A DNA stretch of 64,000 nt. Source: Nitrospira sp. GTDB taxonomy: Bacteria; Nitrospirota; Nitrospiria; Nitrospirales; Nitrospiraceae. Of the stretch, positions 17,330-23,458 are shown piece after piece. Location: contig JAVYIN010000011.1 in assembly GCA_035968315.1 (NCBI GenBank), forward strand, positions 1 to 64,000, read 5' to 3'. How positions within the stretch are numbered: position 1 is the stretch's first letter; every line of letters begins with the position of its first letter. Under the pieces are notes generated by a model. That model was not told where the DNA came from. It saw only the letters and a list, made by a program, of their open reading frames with translations, and did no database searches. The position numbers were made by a program, and so were the translations under genes.

Positions 17330-17854
17330 CTACTCCGCTGAATCGGTGATGTGGTCGTTGAACCGCGGAGCCAGGGTCCGGCTATCGATGAAGATGAACC
17401 CCCGCTCCGTGCTGGCCTGATAGGTCAGATTGATCTCGGTGTCTGTGCCGCGCCAGGTATATTGCTGGTTGAGACCGCGGGTCATCTGGCCGGGGATGCG
17501 CTCCAGCGGGCCGAATTGCGCTTCCATGTACTCCATGACGCGTTTATGGGTCTGGTCGCCGCTGTATCGGATGGTGACCCGGGCAAATTGATCATCGACC
17601 GAGACGTACAGGATGCTGGTCATCTCGGCATTGGCAAACGAAGGGGTGCCGGTCTTGGCGCGATACTCGCTGATATGCGGGCCGGTTCGCGCCGGTTCCA
17701 GGTCGGTGCGGGCCATGAGGGCCGTTCCCCAGGGAATGTTCTGAAATCCTTTGGGATCGTTAATCATCGGCACGGCATCGGCGGCTGAGGGCTGAAGCAG
17801 TAGGGATGACAGCAGGAGCGCAAGGATGAGCCGGCAGTTCAGAAGACAGCGCAT
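17330..17854 (-). CDS. Secreted protein of unknown function, paralogue B
   Basis: A 174-residue protein with a signal peptide (LILALLLSSLLLQPSAADA). It matches paralogue A block by block: NDPKGFQNIPWGT, an IRYSGDQTH segment, FGPLERIPGQ and a terminal FIDSRTL. It therefore looks like a tandem duplication. It is the promoter-proximal gene of the pair. No catalytic residues are recognisable. Confidence 0.65.
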   Translation of the reverse strand: MRCLLNCRLILALLLSSLLLQPSAADAVPMINDPKGFQNIPWGTALMARTDLEPARTGPHISEYRAKTGTPSFANAEMTSILYVSVDDQFARVTIRYSGDQTHKRVMEYMEAQFGPLERIPGQMTRGLNQQYTWRGTDTEINLTYQASTERGFIFIDSRTLAPRFNDHITDSAE

Positions 17855-18023
17855 GGCGAAAGATCCTGTCGAAATCAGTGGCCGAGGCGCACGCTACCAT
17901 GCGGCCCGGCTCCGTGCAACCGCTCGCCGTTTGTTGAGAATGCGGAACGCCTGTCCTATAATGCCTTCGCTTTCACAGTCGATATCACGATGGGTGCCAT
18001 GCGGGCAAAGGATTGAGACGGAC

Positions 18024-18521
18024 ATGATCGAGAGCGACGCATTCGTTCAAGCACTGCAGGACATGGGGGTAGACTTTTTCACCGGGGTGCCCGATTCGAT
18101 TCTGGGCGGCATTATTGCGGAATTGATGGATCGCCGGCTCTATACGCCGGCCGTGCGGGAAGATGAAGCGGTGGGCATGGCCGCCGGGGCGTACATGGCG
18201 GGGAAAATTCCCGCCGTGTTGATGCAGAATTCCGGGCTGGGCACGTCGCTCAATACCCTGATCTCGCTCAATCAGATTTATCGTCAGCCCTGCATCCTGA
18301 TCGTCTCCTGGCGGGGCCAGGGCGGGAAGGACGCGCCGGAGCATCTGGTGATGGGTGAAGTCATGCCGCAATTTCTTGACACCATGAAAATCCCGCACCG
18401 GGTCTTGACCGAGAAGACGGCCGTCGAGGATTTCAAATGGGTGGCCGAGACCTTCATGAAGCAGCGCATGCCGGTCGCACTCGTGATTACCAAAGGTGTC
18501 GTAAAGGGGTTGCATCCATGA
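18024..18521 (+). CDS. Phosphonopyruvate decarboxylase, alpha (PYR) subunit
   Basis: A 165-residue N-terminal TPP-enzyme domain. Key blocks are GVPDSILGGI, the conserved acidic EDEAVGMAAGAY region (cofactor-activating Glu), QNSGLGTSLN and WRGQGG. It resembles the alpha half of phosphonopyruvate or sulfopyruvate decarboxylase. Context with AEP transaminase and a cytidylyltransferase favours phosphonopyruvate to phosphonoacetaldehyde. ATG 18024 is chosen although the frame opens at 17826, because the family begins here. It overlaps the beta subunit by 4 nt (ATGA). Confidence 0.8.
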   Translation: MIESDAFVQALQDMGVDFFTGVPDSILGGIIAELMDRRLYTPAVREDEAVGMAAGAYMAGKIPAVLMQNSGLGTSLNTLISLNQIYRQPCILIVSWRGQGGKDAPEHLVMGEVMPQFLDTMKIPHRVLTEKTAVEDFKWVAETFMKQRMPVALVITKGVVKGLHP

Positions 18522-19096
18522 GACCCGAAGAAGGAACGTTAATCAGCCGGGCGCAGGCGATTGCCGCGCTGCTCGAATTGCTCACCGACCAGCCGGTGAT
18601 CATCTGCAACGGCTTCCCGTCGCGCGAAGCGCACAAAATCGCCGACCGGCCCACCCATTTTTACATGATCGGGTCGATGGGGAATGCCGCGGCCATCGCG
18701 CTCGGCGTGGCCTTGGCCAAGCCCAGCAAGCAGGTCATCACATTCGACGGCGACGGCAACGTGCTGATGGGCATGGGCACGCTGGCGACGGTGGGGGCCT
18801 TGAAGCCGAAGAATTTCATTCACGTCGTGTTCGACAACGAAGTGTATGGCACGACCGGGAATCAGCCGACCATTTCCAACGTAGTGCCGCTGGAAAAGGT
18901 CGCCAAAGCGGCCGGTTACGTGAACGTGGAGCGCGTGCTCGACCGCGACGATCTCGTCTACGAGTTCAAAGATATGCTGAAGAAAGACGGGCCAAGCATG
19001 TTGCTGATCAAGGTCAACGAGTTTGCGGAAGACGCCGGGCGGGTGCTCCATGAACCGCCCGACATTACCAAACGGTTTATGGCCGCCATCGAATAG
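18518..19096 (+). CDS. Phosphonopyruvate decarboxylase, beta (TPP-binding) subunit
   Basis: A 192-residue C-terminal TPP domain. It shows GSMGNAAAIALG, the Mg-TPP motif GDGN followed by the N of the DNEVYGTTG block, and the NQPT segment typical of the family. With the alpha subunit it forms one decarboxylase split over two genes. Single-chain versions of about 380 residues are usual for phosphonopyruvate decarboxylase, while split subunits are better known in sulfopyruvate decarboxylase (ComDE). The substrate call therefore rests on neighbours. Confidence 0.8.
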   Translation: MRPEEGTLISRAQAIAALLELLTDQPVIICNGFPSREAHKIADRPTHFYMIGSMGNAAAIALGVALAKPSKQVITFDGDGNVLMGMGTLATVGALKPKNFIHVVFDNEVYGTTGNQPTISNVVPLEKVAKAAGYVNVERVLDRDDLVYEFKDMLKKDGPSMLLIKVNEFAEDAGRVLHEPPDITKRFMAAIE

Positions 19097-19104
19097 AAAG
19101 GCAG

Positions 19105-19173
19105 GCCAGAGGCACGAGGCACGGGGCCAGGGGTAAGATTTTACCGCTGGCCCCTCGCCCCTAGCCTCTTGCC
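19105..19173. repeat. Palindromic heptad array R5 (GCNAGRG type)
   Basis: Four direct units (GCCAGAG, GCACGAG, GCACGGG, GCCAGGG) at 19105-19132. GGTAA/TTACC forms the centre, and four inverted units (GCTGGCC, CCTCGCC, CCTAGCC, TCTTGCC) occupy 19146-19173. The array spans most of the gap between the decarboxylase beta gene and the transaminase gene and could form a hairpin of about 30 bp in the operon mRNA. Confidence 0.87.
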
Positions 19174-19183
19174 GGAAAATCGA

Positions 19184-20266
19184 ATGATCTTATTGAATCC
19201 CGGTCCAGTCAATGTGAGCGAGCGGGTGCGGCAGGCCTTGTTGCGGCCGGATATCTGCCACCGCGAGTCGGAGTTCACCGCGCTGCTCCATCGGATCCAG
19301 GACAAGCTGTTGAAAGCGTTCGTCCCCGGTGCGGAAGCCGACTACGCGGCGGTGCTCATCACCGGCTCCGGCACGGCGGCTGTCGAATCGGCGCTCATGT
19401 CGGCCATCCCGCACGGGAAGCGCATGCTGGTGCTGAATAACGGCGTGTATGGCGAGCGCATTTCGCAGATGGTCGGCCTCCATCGGCTGGGCGTGTCTGA
19501 ACTCAAGTACGACTGGACGGCCAAGCCGGACCCTGAGCGCCTCCGGCTCGCGTTGCGGCAGCATCCCGAAGTCCATGCCGTGGCCATGGTGCATCATGAG
19601 ACGACGACCGGCCTCATCAATCCGGTGAAAGAAGTCGCGGAGGTGGTGGATAGCCAGAATCGCGCCTTCATTCTGGATGCGGTCAGCGGATTGGGCGGGG
19701 AGTCGCTGGATATCGCCGGGTCGCACATCTATATGGTGGCGGGGACGGCGGGGAAGTGCATCCAGGGTTTCCCGGGTGTCTCCTTCGTGCTGGTGCGCAA
19801 GGGCTTCCTGGAGCGGATGCGGAACTATCCCAAGCGCTCCTGGTATCTGCACCTGACGCATTATGTGGACGATCAGGGCCGCGGCACGATTCCTTTCACG
19901 CCTGCCGTGCAGGTCTATTACGGGTTCGACGAGGCGCTGAGCGAATTGCTGGAAGAGGGCGTGGCCAACCGCATTCAGCGCTATAAAAAAGCCTCGGCGT
20001 TGATTCGTGCGCGCATGGCGAAGCTCGGGATCAAGCCAGTGCTCACGCCGGACCGCCAGTCCAATACCATTACGGCCTATTATCTGCCCGAGGGGGTCAC
20101 GTACGCGCAGCTCCATGACCGGCTGAAGTCGCAGGGCTATGTGATCTATGCCGGCCAGGGTCAGCTGGAGAGCACGGTCTTCCGGGTGGCGAACATGGGC
20201 GCGCTCACCGAGGCGCAGCTGACCGGATTTCTTGACGCATTCGAACAGGCATCTAAACCGGCATGA
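19184..20266 (+). CDS. 2-aminoethylphosphonate--pyruvate transaminase-like aminotransferase
   Basis: A class V PLP aminotransferase of 360 residues. It begins ILLNPGPVNV and carries GSGTAAVE, VHHETTTG, ILDAVSGLGGE and the AGTAGKC block with the Schiff-base Lys, all in the order seen in PhnW. It would interconvert phosphonoacetaldehyde and AEP. ATG 19184 is preferred over TTG 19169, which lies inside heptad array R5. Its stop overlaps the cytidylyltransferase start (ATGA). Alanine-glyoxylate-type aminotransferase is the alternative. Confidence 0.8.
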   Translation: MILLNPGPVNVSERVRQALLRPDICHRESEFTALLHRIQDKLLKAFVPGAEADYAAVLITGSGTAAVESALMSAIPHGKRMLVLNNGVYGERISQMVGLHRLGVSELKYDWTAKPDPERLRLALRQHPEVHAVAMVHHETTTGLINPVKEVAEVVDSQNRAFILDAVSGLGGESLDIAGSHIYMVAGTAGKCIQGFPGVSFVLVRKGFLERMRNYPKRSWYLHLTHYVDDQGRGTIPFTPAVQVYYGFDEALSELLEEGVANRIQRYKKASALIRARMAKLGIKPVLTPDRQSNTITAYYLPEGVTYAQLHDRLKSQGYVIYAGQGQLESTVFRVANMGALTEAQLTGFLDAFEQASKPA

Positions 20267-20982
20267 AAGCGATCATTCTCGCCGCCGGAGTCGGCAAACG
20301 GCTCTGGCCGGTGACCCAGCATCATCCCAAGTGTCTCATCAAGATCGGGGGAGAGACCCTGCTGCACCGGTATCTCACCTCGCTGGCGAGCGTCGGCATC
20401 CGGCAGGCCGACATTGTCGTCGGGTACAAACAAGAGATGATTCGTGCCGCCGTGGAAGCCGATGCCTGCGGAGTGCGGGTGAATTTCCTGGTCAACGACC
20501 AGTTCCATCGCGGCAGCATCTCGTCCTTGTGGATTGCGCGGACGGCGTTCACGGACGACGCGATCGTCATGGACGCCGACGTGCTGTTTCACCGGGAGAT
20601 CTTGCGCCGGTTGGTGCAGTCCCCATTCGAGAACGCCCTGCTCATGGATGAAACCGTCAAGCAAACCGGCGAAGAGTGCATGGTGGTGGTGGAAGGCGGC
20701 CGGGTGATCGCCCTCACGAAGAAGATGCCGGCACGGTATGAATATGCGGGCGAAGGGGTGGGGTTTTTGCGGGTGCGGCAGGCGGATTCCCCCCATGTCG
20801 TGGCGTCGCTGCGGACCTATGTCGATCGCGAGGCCTGGCAGATGGAGTATGAAGACGCGTTGCTCGAATATTTCCGCGATGTGAAGGTCGGCCATGAAAA
20901 GATCGGCGGGCTGCCCTGGACCGAAATCGATTTTCCTGAAGATATCACCAAGGCCGAACGCGAGATCCTGCCGCGACTGTAA
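20263..20982 (+). CDS. Nucleotidyltransferase, probable AEP cytidylyltransferase (PntC-like)
   Basis: A 239-residue NTP transferase of the LicC/PntC type. The NTP-binding signature LAAGVGKRL is at 6-14 with the PKCLIKIGG block (22-30). The metal-binding D104 and D106 sit in VMDADVLF, and NDQFHRGSISSLW matches the N...SL segment of choline-phosphate-like cytidylyltransferases. Coupled by ATGA overlap to the AEP transaminase, it probably makes CMP-AEP from CTP and AEP. Phosphocholine cytidylyltransferase is the alternative. Confidence 0.78.
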   Translation: MKAIILAAGVGKRLWPVTQHHPKCLIKIGGETLLHRYLTSLASVGIRQADIVVGYKQEMIRAAVEADACGVRVNFLVNDQFHRGSISSLWIARTAFTDDAIVMDADVLFHREILRRLVQSPFENALLMDETVKQTGEECMVVVEGGRVIALTKKMPARYEYAGEGVGFLRVRQADSPHVVASLRTYVDREAWQMEYEDALLEYFRDVKVGHEKIGGLPWTEIDFPEDITKAEREILPRL

Positions 20983-20994
20983 CTGACGTTCGTG

Positions 20995-21041
20995 ACGGGT
21001 TACGCGTCACGTGTGACGAACCACGAGAGACGAGTCACGAA
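20995..21041. repeat. Heptad array R6 (ACG every 7 bp)
   Basis: Seven ACG trinucleotides in strict 7-bp register from 20995 to 21039. The array includes the palindrome CGTCACGTGTGACG (21005-21018) and an outer TTCGTGAC/GTCACGAA inverted pair (20989-20996 and 21034-21041). It lies between the cytidylyltransferase and the CDP-alcohol phosphotransferase genes. Confidence 0.75.
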
Positions 21042-21048
21042 TCCAATT

Positions 21049-22473
21049 ATGAGCGAAAGTCTTACCCAACAACAGGCGGACATTCAGGGCCTTGCGACGG
21101 CCATTCTGCTGCCCTCCGTGGGAGTCTTTGGGGAGCCGATCCAGCGCCGGCCCGGTGCGGCTGGGCCGTTGACCCACGTCGTGGGCATCAGCTTGTTCCA
21201 GCGGGCCGTTCTGACATTGCAACGGGCCGGCATCCGGCACTTGATCGTGCTGGCCGGTCCGGAAGAAGAGCAGCTCAAACAGGCGCTGGGCCGTGGCCCG
21301 CGTGTCACCATTCCGGTCCGATGGATGCCGATTCGGGAGTTCCCGCTCGACGATCCCCGTACCTGGGACGCGATGGCGGCGGAAGTCCATGGCTTTTGCC
21401 TGATCGCGAGCGTGTGCGGCGTCTTTTCTCGTCCCTTGATCGAACACCTTCGGCGTGAGGTGCAGGACGGGCAGGCCATCGTGGTGGCGCAGCCCGCAGG
21501 CCGGCAGGGTCTTGGTAAACAGCAGGTGCCGGTGATGGTGCAGGCGGAGCGGCTGCTGGCACTCGGTTCGGTGCGAGGCGCGTCGGCGGAATTCGTTGCG
21601 GCGGATCTCTTGGTGGTGCCGGCCAGCCTCATGCGGTCCAGGCGTGCCGCTCATTCCACGGAAGAGACGATTCCGATCCGGCAATGGATCGAGCGGGCGG
21701 CGCTCGATGGGCGGGTGCGGGTGGTGAGAACGGACCGGCATCCGGCGGAGTGGTATCAGGACGTGCGGATCCAGGCCGATGTGCCGATGGCGGAACGCCG
21801 GCTCTTCTCCTCGCTGAAAGGCGAATTCGAAGGGTTCGTCGATCGGTATTTCAACCGCAAGCTGTCGCGCTGGTTTACCCGTGTGTTTCTCGTGCTGGGC
21901 CTCTCCCCGAACGTCATCACGATGATCGCAACGGTGATCGGGCTGCTGGCGGCGGCGGGGTTCGGCATCGGTACCTACAGCGCGGGCATTCTGGCGGCGG
22001 CGCTGTTTCAACTGGCGGCGGTGATCGATTGTTGCGACGGTGAAGTGGCGCGGCTCACGTTTACGGAGTCGCCGTTCGGAGCCTGGCTCGACATTGCCAT
22101 GGACAACGTCGTGCACATGGCGATATTCGGCGGGATTGCGATCGGCGCCTATCAGCGCGTTGCCGCGCAAGACGAGGCCTGGATTCCCTTGGCCCTGGGC
22201 GCGGCGGCTATTGTCGGAAACGCCCTGTCGTTCCTGCTGGTCAATCGGGCGCAGAAGATCAAGCAGGCGAGCGGGTGGAAGACCCCGGTCCATGCCGCCT
22301 GGTCGGATTTCATGTTGAAGAACGTGGCGAGCCGCGATTTTTCCGTCGTCGTGCTGCTCTTTGCCCTGCTGGGCAAGCTGGAGTGGTTTCTGTGTATGGC
22401 CGCGGCCGGGTCGATCGTGTTTGCCGCGCTGATGGTGTGGGTGATTCGTCCATCCGCTACGTCCCGTGCTTAG
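21049..22473 (+). CDS. CDP-alcohol phosphotransferase with N-terminal nucleotidyltransferase-like domain
   Basis: A 474-residue two-domain protein. Residues 1 to about 240 look like a sugar-nucleotidyltransferase fold but lack the G-x-G-x-R signature, so that domain may be inactive. The C-terminal membrane domain has the complete CDP-alcohol phosphotransferase motif: D330 G331 x2 A334 R335 x8 G344 x3 D348 x3 D352. The architecture resembles IPCT/DIPPS fusions of inositol-lipid synthesis. Here it probably transfers phosphono-ethanolamine from CMP-AEP to a lipid. ATG 21049 follows heptad array R6. It overlaps the next gene by 8 nt. Confidence 0.82.
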   Translation: MSESLTQQQADIQGLATAILLPSVGVFGEPIQRRPGAAGPLTHVVGISLFQRAVLTLQRAGIRHLIVLAGPEEEQLKQALGRGPRVTIPVRWMPIREFPLDDPRTWDAMAAEVHGFCLIASVCGVFSRPLIEHLRREVQDGQAIVVAQPAGRQGLGKQQVPVMVQAERLLALGSVRGASAEFVAADLLVVPASLMRSRRAAHSTEETIPIRQWIERAALDGRVRVVRTDRHPAEWYQDVRIQADVPMAERRLFSSLKGEFEGFVDRYFNRKLSRWFTRVFLVLGLSPNVITMIATVIGLLAAAGFGIGTYSAGILAAALFQLAAVIDCCDGEVARLTFTESPFGAWLDIAMDNVVHMAIFGGIAIGAYQRVAAQDEAWIPLALGAAAIVGNALSFLLVNRAQKIKQASGWKTPVHAAWSDFMLKNVASRDFSVVVLLFALLGKLEWFLCMAAAGSIVFAALMVWVIRPSATSRA

Positions 22474-23458
22474 GCCCCTCCTCCTTGCCCTCGGGCTGGC
22501 CACACTCGGGCTCCTCGTCTGGCATATCGGGCCTGGCCGCATCTATGACGCGGCGGCGCAGCTCGGGCCGCTGGCCCTGCTCGTCATGCTCATCCCCTCG
22601 TTCATCATGTACGCGATCGAAGCCTACGGGTGGAAAGTCACGCTGGGGCCTTCGGCGCAGGCGGTGCCGTTCTGGCGCGTGTTTGCCATCAGGACCGCCG
22701 GGGAAGTGGTGAACATGACCACGCCGACCGCCTATGTCGGCGGCGAGCCGCTGAAGGCCTATCTCTTGAAAAAACACCGCGTGCCGATGGTGGAAGGCCT
22801 GGCTTCGGTCGTCATTGCCAAAACCACGATGACGATTGCCGAAGTCCTGTTCATTTTGCTCGGCATCGCGCTGGGCGTGTGGGTGTTGGGCGGGCACGAT
22901 TCGTCCGGCCAGACCGTGGCGGCGGCGCTTTTGAGCGTGGGGCTGCTGGCGTTCGGGACGGCGGCCTTCGTGTTTGTGCAGCGGCGCGGCCTCTTTACCT
23001 GGATGCTGGAGACACTCCGGCGGCTGGGATTCCGGATCGGCTTTCTGGAAGCGCGGGAAGAGAAATTGCGCGAACTCGACCGGACGATCTTGGAGTTCTA
23101 TACGCACCAGCGGCCGGCCTTTTATACCTCCACCGGGCTCTTTTTTCTCGGCTGGCTGGCGGAAGCGCTGGAAGTCTACGTCATCATTGATTATCTCGGC
23201 GGGCCGGCGCTGGCAGTCTCGGCCATTTCCATCGGAGCGCTTTCGGTTTTCATCAAGGGCGGGACCTTCTTCATCCCCGGCAGCCTCGGCGCACAGGACG
23301 GCGGCAATCTGCTCCTGTTGAAAGCGTTCGGCTATAGCGACGTCACCGGGATCACCTTCGCGTTGCTCCGGCGATTCCGCGAACTCGTCTGGATCGGCAT
23401 CGGGCTGCTGTGTCTGGCGGTGTTGGGGAGGGGCTCGGGAACTGCGGACAAGAGTTAA
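22466..23458 (+). CDS. Flippase-like membrane protein (UPF0104 / LPG synthase TM region)
   Basis: A 330-residue integral membrane protein of the lysylphosphatidylglycerol synthase TM/UPF0104 family. It starts at GTG 22466 inside the end of the previous gene. About eight helices are visible, with the family blocks TPTAYVGGEPLKAYLL and FFIPGSLGAQDGGN. Members are thought to move or modify lipids or glycolipids. As the last gene of the phosphonate cluster it may flip or export the product lipid; this is inference. It ends convergently over the PilZ gene by 4 nt. Confidence 0.8.
   Translation: MLRPLLLALGLATLGLLVWHIGPGRIYDAAAQLGPLALLVMLIPSFIMYAIEAYGWKVTLGPSAQAVPFWRVFAIRTAGEVVNMTTPTAYVGGEPLKAYLLKKHRVPMVEGLASVVIAKTTMTIAEVLFILLGIALGVWVLGGHDSSGQTVAAALLSVGLLAFGTAAFVFVQRRGLFTWMLETLRRLGFRIGFLEAREEKLRELDRTILEFYTHQRPAFYTSTGLFFLGWLAEALEVYVIIDYLGGPALAVSAISIGALSVFIKGGTFFIPGSLGAQDGGNLLLLKAFGYSDVTGITFALLRRFRELVWIGIGLLCLAVLGRGSGTADKS

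Follow-up and report, generated by a model that had tools for sequence, protein, structure and literature searches.

The transferase gene at 21049-22473 of the window (the whole 64,000-nucleotide stretch of Nitrospira DNA that was analysed) raises the question of why a membrane CDP-alcohol phosphotransferase should carry an additional, nucleotidyltransferase (NTase)-like domain at its N-terminus, directly behind a gene for a separate cytidylyltransferase. An earlier note on this DNA had proposed that the domain resembles IPCT-type enzymes, that it lacks their catalytic signature, and that it may be a pseudoenzyme, perhaps acting as a scaffold for the neighboring enzyme.

The operon and its proposed chemistry

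The window genome is Nitrospira-type, 3.1 Mb in size and 99.97% complete. The transferase lies in a + strand operon (about 18024 to 23458) that comprises a two-part phosphonopyruvate decarboxylase, a 2-aminoethylphosphonate (AEP) transaminase, a PntC-like cytidylyltransferase, the transferase and a flippase-like protein, in a gene order kept widely among relatives. In a scan of named genomes, the closest relative of the 474-residue protein was found in Nitrospira sp. UBA6493 (92% identity).

18024..18521, + strand: phosphonopyruvate decarboxylase, alpha part (TIGR03297, E 6e-39; start inferred inside ORF 17826-18521)
18518..19096, + strand: phosphonopyruvate decarboxylase, beta part (TIGR03846, E 6e-55; TIGR03297, E 7e-52; start inferred inside ORF 18437-19096)
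19169..20266, + strand: AEP transaminase, AEPT/PhnW-type (TIGR03301, E 5e-104, 348.6 bits, slightly below the cut-off of 360.8)
20263..20982, + strand: stand-alone AEP cytidylyltransferase, PntC-like (best PDB sequence match 6PD1, E 2e-14; motifs)
21049-22473, + strand: transferase ORF, 474 aa, ATG start
22466..23458, + strand: flippase-like/HpnL-like membrane protein (PF03706, E 5e-30; TIGR03476 HpnL, E 7e-45, 153.6 bits, under the cut-off of 195.65)

The last of these genes, whose start overlaps the transferase stop, ends the conserved operon. The product of 20263-20982 retains the catalytic motifs LAAGVGKRL, PKCL, DADVLF and WTEID, so that the intact loop described for this gene in the earlier note is accompanied by the rest of the NTase set; with this set and its closest relation to Tde-PntC, the protein can be assigned as a probable PntC. 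Within the transferase, four features are relevant here.

21049..21798, + strand: residues 1-250, degenerate IPCT-type NTase domain (AlphaFold2 model, fold searches, hhalign and lost catalytic positions)
21106..21156, + strand: residues 20-36, LLPSVGVFGEPIQRRPG, at the expected GxGxR site
21319..21366, + strand: residues 91-106, motif RWxPxREFPxxDPxTW, at the FxRGxxxSL/WxxGNAxSL site of active NTases
21820..22470, + strand: residues 258-474, transmembrane CDP-alcohol phosphotransferase domain (PF01066)

The Pfam family CDP-OH_P_transf (PF01066) matches the C-terminal half with an E-value of 4e-10 and 40.7 bits against a cut-off of 22. The signature DxxDGxxAR...GxxxDxxxD is intact at residues 327-352, and its eight positions are invariant in 103/103 sequences. 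This set was assembled from ORFs longer than 380 aa that contain D[CG]CDGE and no X, with identical C-termini merged (124 ORFs reduced to 103), and divides into 93 proteins with a degenerate N-terminal domain and 10 with an intact NTase; ORFs consisting of the C-terminal domain only, L100 (DCSDGE) and broken copies fall outside it, and the 93 include one divergent paralogue (L109) and one cut-short sequence (L066, which ends before residue 55). From family knowledge (the available text of PMC6697681 for PntC, the CDP-alcohol signature for the transferase), we infer that AEP would be made by PEP mutase, phosphonopyruvate decarboxylase and AEP transaminase, that the stand-alone PntC would convert it to CMP-AEP, and that the transmembrane domain would move the AEP group onto an alcohol acceptor, probably one that is a lipid or is linked to the membrane, freeing CMP. 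The product is likely a phosphonolipid or a phosphonylated membrane alcohol.

The flippase-like protein is the sole HpnL-type match in the window genome at E <= 1e-10, HpnL is its best-scoring family, and the genome encodes a hopene cyclase. A hopanoid link of this gene is thus possible, and a hopanoid or other lipid as the acceptor would be a guess. In two relatives, G350 and G308 (L101:4773-5747 and L102:7139-8131), a squalene-hopene cyclase-like gene, called by profile scan in the former and by eye in the latter, lies between PntC and a stand-alone transferase; G350 also encodes, by eye, a Rieske-like protein in this interval.

The PEP mutase of the window genome is encoded on a separate contig (C5, L001:1465-3096) and is fused to another NTase domain, which has an altered loop, LAASRGKELGELTEQQPK, yet retains PK and GDVLF. 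Across these genomes PEP mutase occurs in two forms that are almost mutually exclusive. The canonical, NTase-fused form carries EDKxxxxxNS and scores above the TIGR02320 cut-off in 95/395 genomes; the divergent form, a putative PEP mutase, carries EDNxxPKRCS in 5/5 copies read (L062:18-1703, - strand; L083:381-2090, - strand; L084:1-1695, - strand; L095:474-2159, - strand; L111:12195-13499, + strand), scores below the cut-off, and lies beside the AEP operon on the opposite strand. One genome, G199, has a second, broken AEPT-PntC-transferase-flippase-like set (L110:4219-8380) in addition to an intact copy.

Fold and catalytic positions of the N-terminal domain

Pfam detects only a sub-threshold NTP_transf_3 match in the N-terminal half, which scores 15.4 bits where the cut-off is 27 (E 0.022). 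An AlphaFold2 model of the window protein, computed from an input of 41 rows among which there were no intact-NTase fusions, reached a pLDDT of 84.6 and a pTM of 0.81. When this model was compared with the PDB by Foldseek, the top match was 4MND, the IPCT-DIPPS of Archaeoglobus fulgidus (E 2e-18, TMq 0.68, TMt 0.78), followed by AF2299 (E 3e-12). VIA-align superposed the model on 4MND with Z 27.6 over 397 residues, on AF2299 with Z 27.7 over 330 residues, and on the PntC structure 6PD2 with Z 20.7 over 225 residues (rmsd 3.0 Å). In agreement, a profile of the degenerate domains aligned with intact IPCT domains in hhalign over 217 columns (E 2e-16). The superposition on IPCT and PntC that the earlier note had suggested thus indicates an NTase fold, and the proposed resemblance to IPCT-type enzymes is borne out.

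In the predicted model, an NTase fold is followed by a six-helix CDP-alcohol transferase, as in 4MND, and the cytidylyltransferase-like domain packs on the transmembrane part, as in AF2299. The Foldseek and VIA-align matches therefore show the predicted two-domain arrangement to be that of IPCT-DIPPS. The window protein is like the Archaeoglobus enzyme in both domains, their order, their arrangement and the CDP-alcohol signature; unlike it, the window protein lacks GxGxR, the Lys and both metal-binding Asp residues in its N-terminal domain, and it scores 98.3 bits against a cut-off of 580 with NCBIfam NF041135 (bifunctional IPCT-DIPPS). According to the available text of PMC4634129, the 4MND and AF2299 proteins both have an N-terminal cytidylyltransferase-like domain. 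Among PDB entries, AF2299 (4O6M/4O6N/4Q7C) is the closest in sequence (profile E 5e-34) and shares the stretch GLTLxxRxxxTLQRAG, but its N-terminal domain is shorter, with about 140 residues against about 250, and the donor seen in its structure is CDP-glycerol (PMC4634129, available text), whereas CMP-AEP is the proposed donor of the window protein. AF2299 can be called a close precedent; the catalytic loss pertains to the family of the window protein. PntC (Tde-PntC, 6PD1/6PD2) and LicC have the same NTase fold as the window domain, but PntC bears the catalytic GXG(T/S)R...PK set, of which the window domain has nothing.

The GxGxR loop was sought in alignments of the N-terminal domain to 4MND and to intact relatives and is absent, LLPSVGVFGEPIQRRPG standing in its place as the earlier note had pointed out. 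In the same alignments (hmmsearch to 4MND, MAFFT to intact relatives), the PK lysine is replaced by Gly39, the first metal Asp by Cys123 and the second by Arg240, so that none of the four IPCT catalytic elements is present in the window protein. The PntC consensus GXG(T/S)RX4-8PK, as given in the available text of PMC6697681, is likewise lacking. Among the 93 distinct degenerate sequences, GxGxR, the Lys and the first metal Asp are each found in 0/93 and the second metal Asp in 1/93, while the Lys and both Asp residues are present in 10/10 intact-NTase sequences. The domain would therefore appear to be dead as an NTase, and the pseudoenzyme reading is supported, in that the whole catalytic set, the metal-binding Asp residues included, has gone and the loss is shared across the clade. 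A sequencing or frame artefact was ruled out because the 93 distinct sequences have both the frame and the residue losses in common.

Used as a query, the window transferase matched 153/395 Nitrospirota genomes at E <= 1e-10, 137 of them in the order of the window genome or in a class-level family (f8); the other 16 belong to different parts of the phylum. PntC was detected at E <= 1e-30 in 136/137 of the former and in no other genome of the 395; in the exception, G282, the transferase match is an incomplete ORF on a contig of 6.5 kb. Fifteen of the 16 outlying genomes were read (all but G355), and 14/15 have an intact-looking IPCT-like N-terminal domain, six of these having been checked for the Lys and both Asp residues (L104-L108, L114) and eight by eye for the loop only (L162-L166, L168-L170). 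Three of these Nitrospirota IPCT-like fusions (L106-L108) follow a myo-inositol-phosphate synthase-like gene (by eye), in contrast to the AEP operon of the window protein. The exception among the 15, G174 (L167, L171), encodes two transferases with another kind of N-terminal domain, lacking GxGxR but containing GDVAY, one of them beside a canonical PEP mutase; perhaps these are an independent case. The divergent paralogue L109 (5488-6771) is a second transferase of genome G193, with a shortened degenerate N-terminal domain and another gene setting. The named-genome scan returned 49 loci, from close relatives only, with titles reading Nitrospira, Nitrospirae, Nitrospirota or Nitrospiraceae.

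Constraint, origin and exchange of the domain

At loci holding both genes, the median dN/dS was 0.13 for the N-terminal domain, 0.10 for the C-terminal domain and 0.06 for PntC (451 pairs, unsaturated pairs only). The value of 0.13 rules out recent pseudogene decay, and by this sequence measure the N-terminal domain is under purifying selection. Such selection, together with an intact predicted fold, would also be expected if the domain were still an NTase working through a different arrangement. We regard this as very improbable: all four catalytic elements are gone in the window protein, intact PntC is encoded in nearly every genome with the transferase, and replacement of either Arg15 or Lys25 of Tde-PntC by Ala leaves less than 10% activity (PMC6697681, available text).

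Conservation within the domain is uneven, peaking in a helix (residues 45-62) and in the 91-106 motif, with a mean of 0.77 for residues 89-107 and 0.55 for the whole domain; the former P-loop stretch (residues 19-35) is variable, at 0.48. The well-conserved stretch at the former FxRGxxxSL/GNAxSL site, and the frequent occurrence of D238 (67/93) and R240 (75/93), could be explained if the former active-site cleft, reshaped around the 91-106 motif, bound CMP-AEP, AEP or another metabolite and tuned the membrane enzyme. A sensor of this kind seems unlikely, because the P-loop that holds pyrophosphate in active enzymes is the variable part here and because three genomes (G334, G308 and G350) encode the transmembrane domain alone, with PntC unfused. 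The absence of the N-terminal domain from these three indicates that the transferase can live without it.

Against PntC, the degenerate-domain profile aligned in hhalign over only 101 columns (E 5e-7). Since this match is far weaker than that to IPCT, the N-terminal domain was rejected as a copy of the neighboring PntC, and it is more likely, judged from these profiles, to be an old IPCT-type partner of the transferase. Four genomes that belong to a single genus (G171, G197, G276 and G356) encode fused proteins of 483-488 aa, in which the frame of PntC continues through the transmembrane domain; the PntC motifs are intact in all four cases, and the dead domain is gone save for a short remnant in the linker. 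In a tree built from an identity-thinned set of C-terminal domains (56 of 107), the fused transmembrane domains form one clade (support 97/86) nested among proteins of this genus that carry the degenerate domain. Their linker is LALEQAA(A/V)EGV..QKAEQ in three genomes and LALEQALFRSLQSVDGTLDG in the fourth, and resembles the tail that the lost domain has in sister genomes, RLALEQAAAEGV...QKAERTLFRSLQSVKGTLDG; the similarity extends to the DNA in the compared stretches (each fused gene against one sister, L138), and linker-like sequence was not found in the tails of separate PntC proteins. The nested clade and the linker remnant suggest that the PntC fusion most likely arose through a deletion in an ancestor that carried the degenerate domain. 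With PntC fused in place of the dead domain, the two-enzyme fusion would thus have been lost and later rebuilt with a different gene in one genus.

Role of the retained domain

Our best explanation is that the ancestor was a bifunctional enzyme of the IPCT-DIPPS type, with a cytidylyltransferase fused to a transmembrane CDP-alcohol phosphotransferase, and that it would have been recruited to the AEP pathway in Nitrospirales. There the fused cytidylyltransferase would have shed its catalytic residues because PntC provides the activated donor in trans, and the dead domain would have been kept as a non-catalytic structural module, positioned as IPCT is in 4MND and bearing the newly conserved 91-106 motif, until one later lineage fused PntC in its place and restored a two-enzyme protein. 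We give this explanation as a whole a probability of about 0.6; residue loss, constraint, co-occurrence and the direction of the swap are read from sequences and the fold from a model, and from these we infer the role of the domain. In 69 operons, the partial distance correlation of the N-terminal domain was 0.41 with its own C-terminal domain, 0.37 with AEPT and -0.08 with PntC, in what is a crude test, confined to loci with all genes, in which pairs are non-independent and the raw values mainly reflect shared history. The location of the domain in the place of IPCT, and distances that track its own C-terminal domain, favor the structural module. Against it stand the three genomes without the domain and the correlation with AEPT, which such a module leaves unexplained. 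In addition, MtPIPS constructs with and without a grafted Af2299 domain had comparable activity (PMC4634129, available text), which argues against a strict general need for an N-terminal domain.

The scaffold envisaged in the earlier note corresponds to a different role, in which the dead domain would dock the stand-alone PntC at the membrane and channel CMP-AEP into the transmembrane active site. The natural fusions, with PntC itself joined to the same transmembrane part instead of the domain, fit such a dock, as do the position of PntC directly upstream of the transferase in most operons and the strong conservation of the helix and the 91-106 motif. GMPPA and GMPPB form a complex of a catalytic and a non-catalytic NTase-fold subunit. 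The fold matches of the window protein include 7D72/7D74, which we take to be GMPPA/GMPPB, and there, too, a non-catalytic NTase fold is kept beside a working relative, although as a separate subunit and not, like the dead domain, fused to a membrane transferase. A dock is nevertheless the lesser candidate, a tentative one that we rank below the structural module: the N-terminal domain shows no distance correlation with PntC beyond that of the rest of the operon, the genomes without the domain lack it though their PntC is unfused, and G077 and G131 encode PntC away from the operon. Ari1348 (Ari-PntC) and LicC were monomeric by light scattering in the available text of PMC6697681. Finally, an AlphaFold2 model of the fused protein, with confident halves (pLDDT 91.1) and a relative placement that is not confident (pTM 0.62), puts the PntC part unlike IPCT in 4MND (16.6 Å rmsd for the full-length superposition). 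If the dock were true, one lineage would have fixed the PntC contact by dropping the dead domain and attaching PntC in its stead, a natural bypass experiment.

The NTase fold and its fusion to a CDP-alcohol transferase are already known from 4MND and AF2299; a dead domain of this kind in a phosphonate operon, or its exchange for PntC, was not found in searches of the literature on phosphonate biosynthesis, CDP-alcohol transferases, NTase pseudoenzymes and Nitrospira. Here a two-enzyme fusion would appear to have lost one of its activities, with the dead half kept under selection across a bacterial order, and one genus to have regained a two-enzyme fusion through a different gene. The findings tie a conserved phosphonate operon of Nitrospira, nitrite oxidizers of the nitrogen cycle, to a CDP-alcohol transferase, and the natural PntC swap offers a direct test of the purpose of the dead domain.
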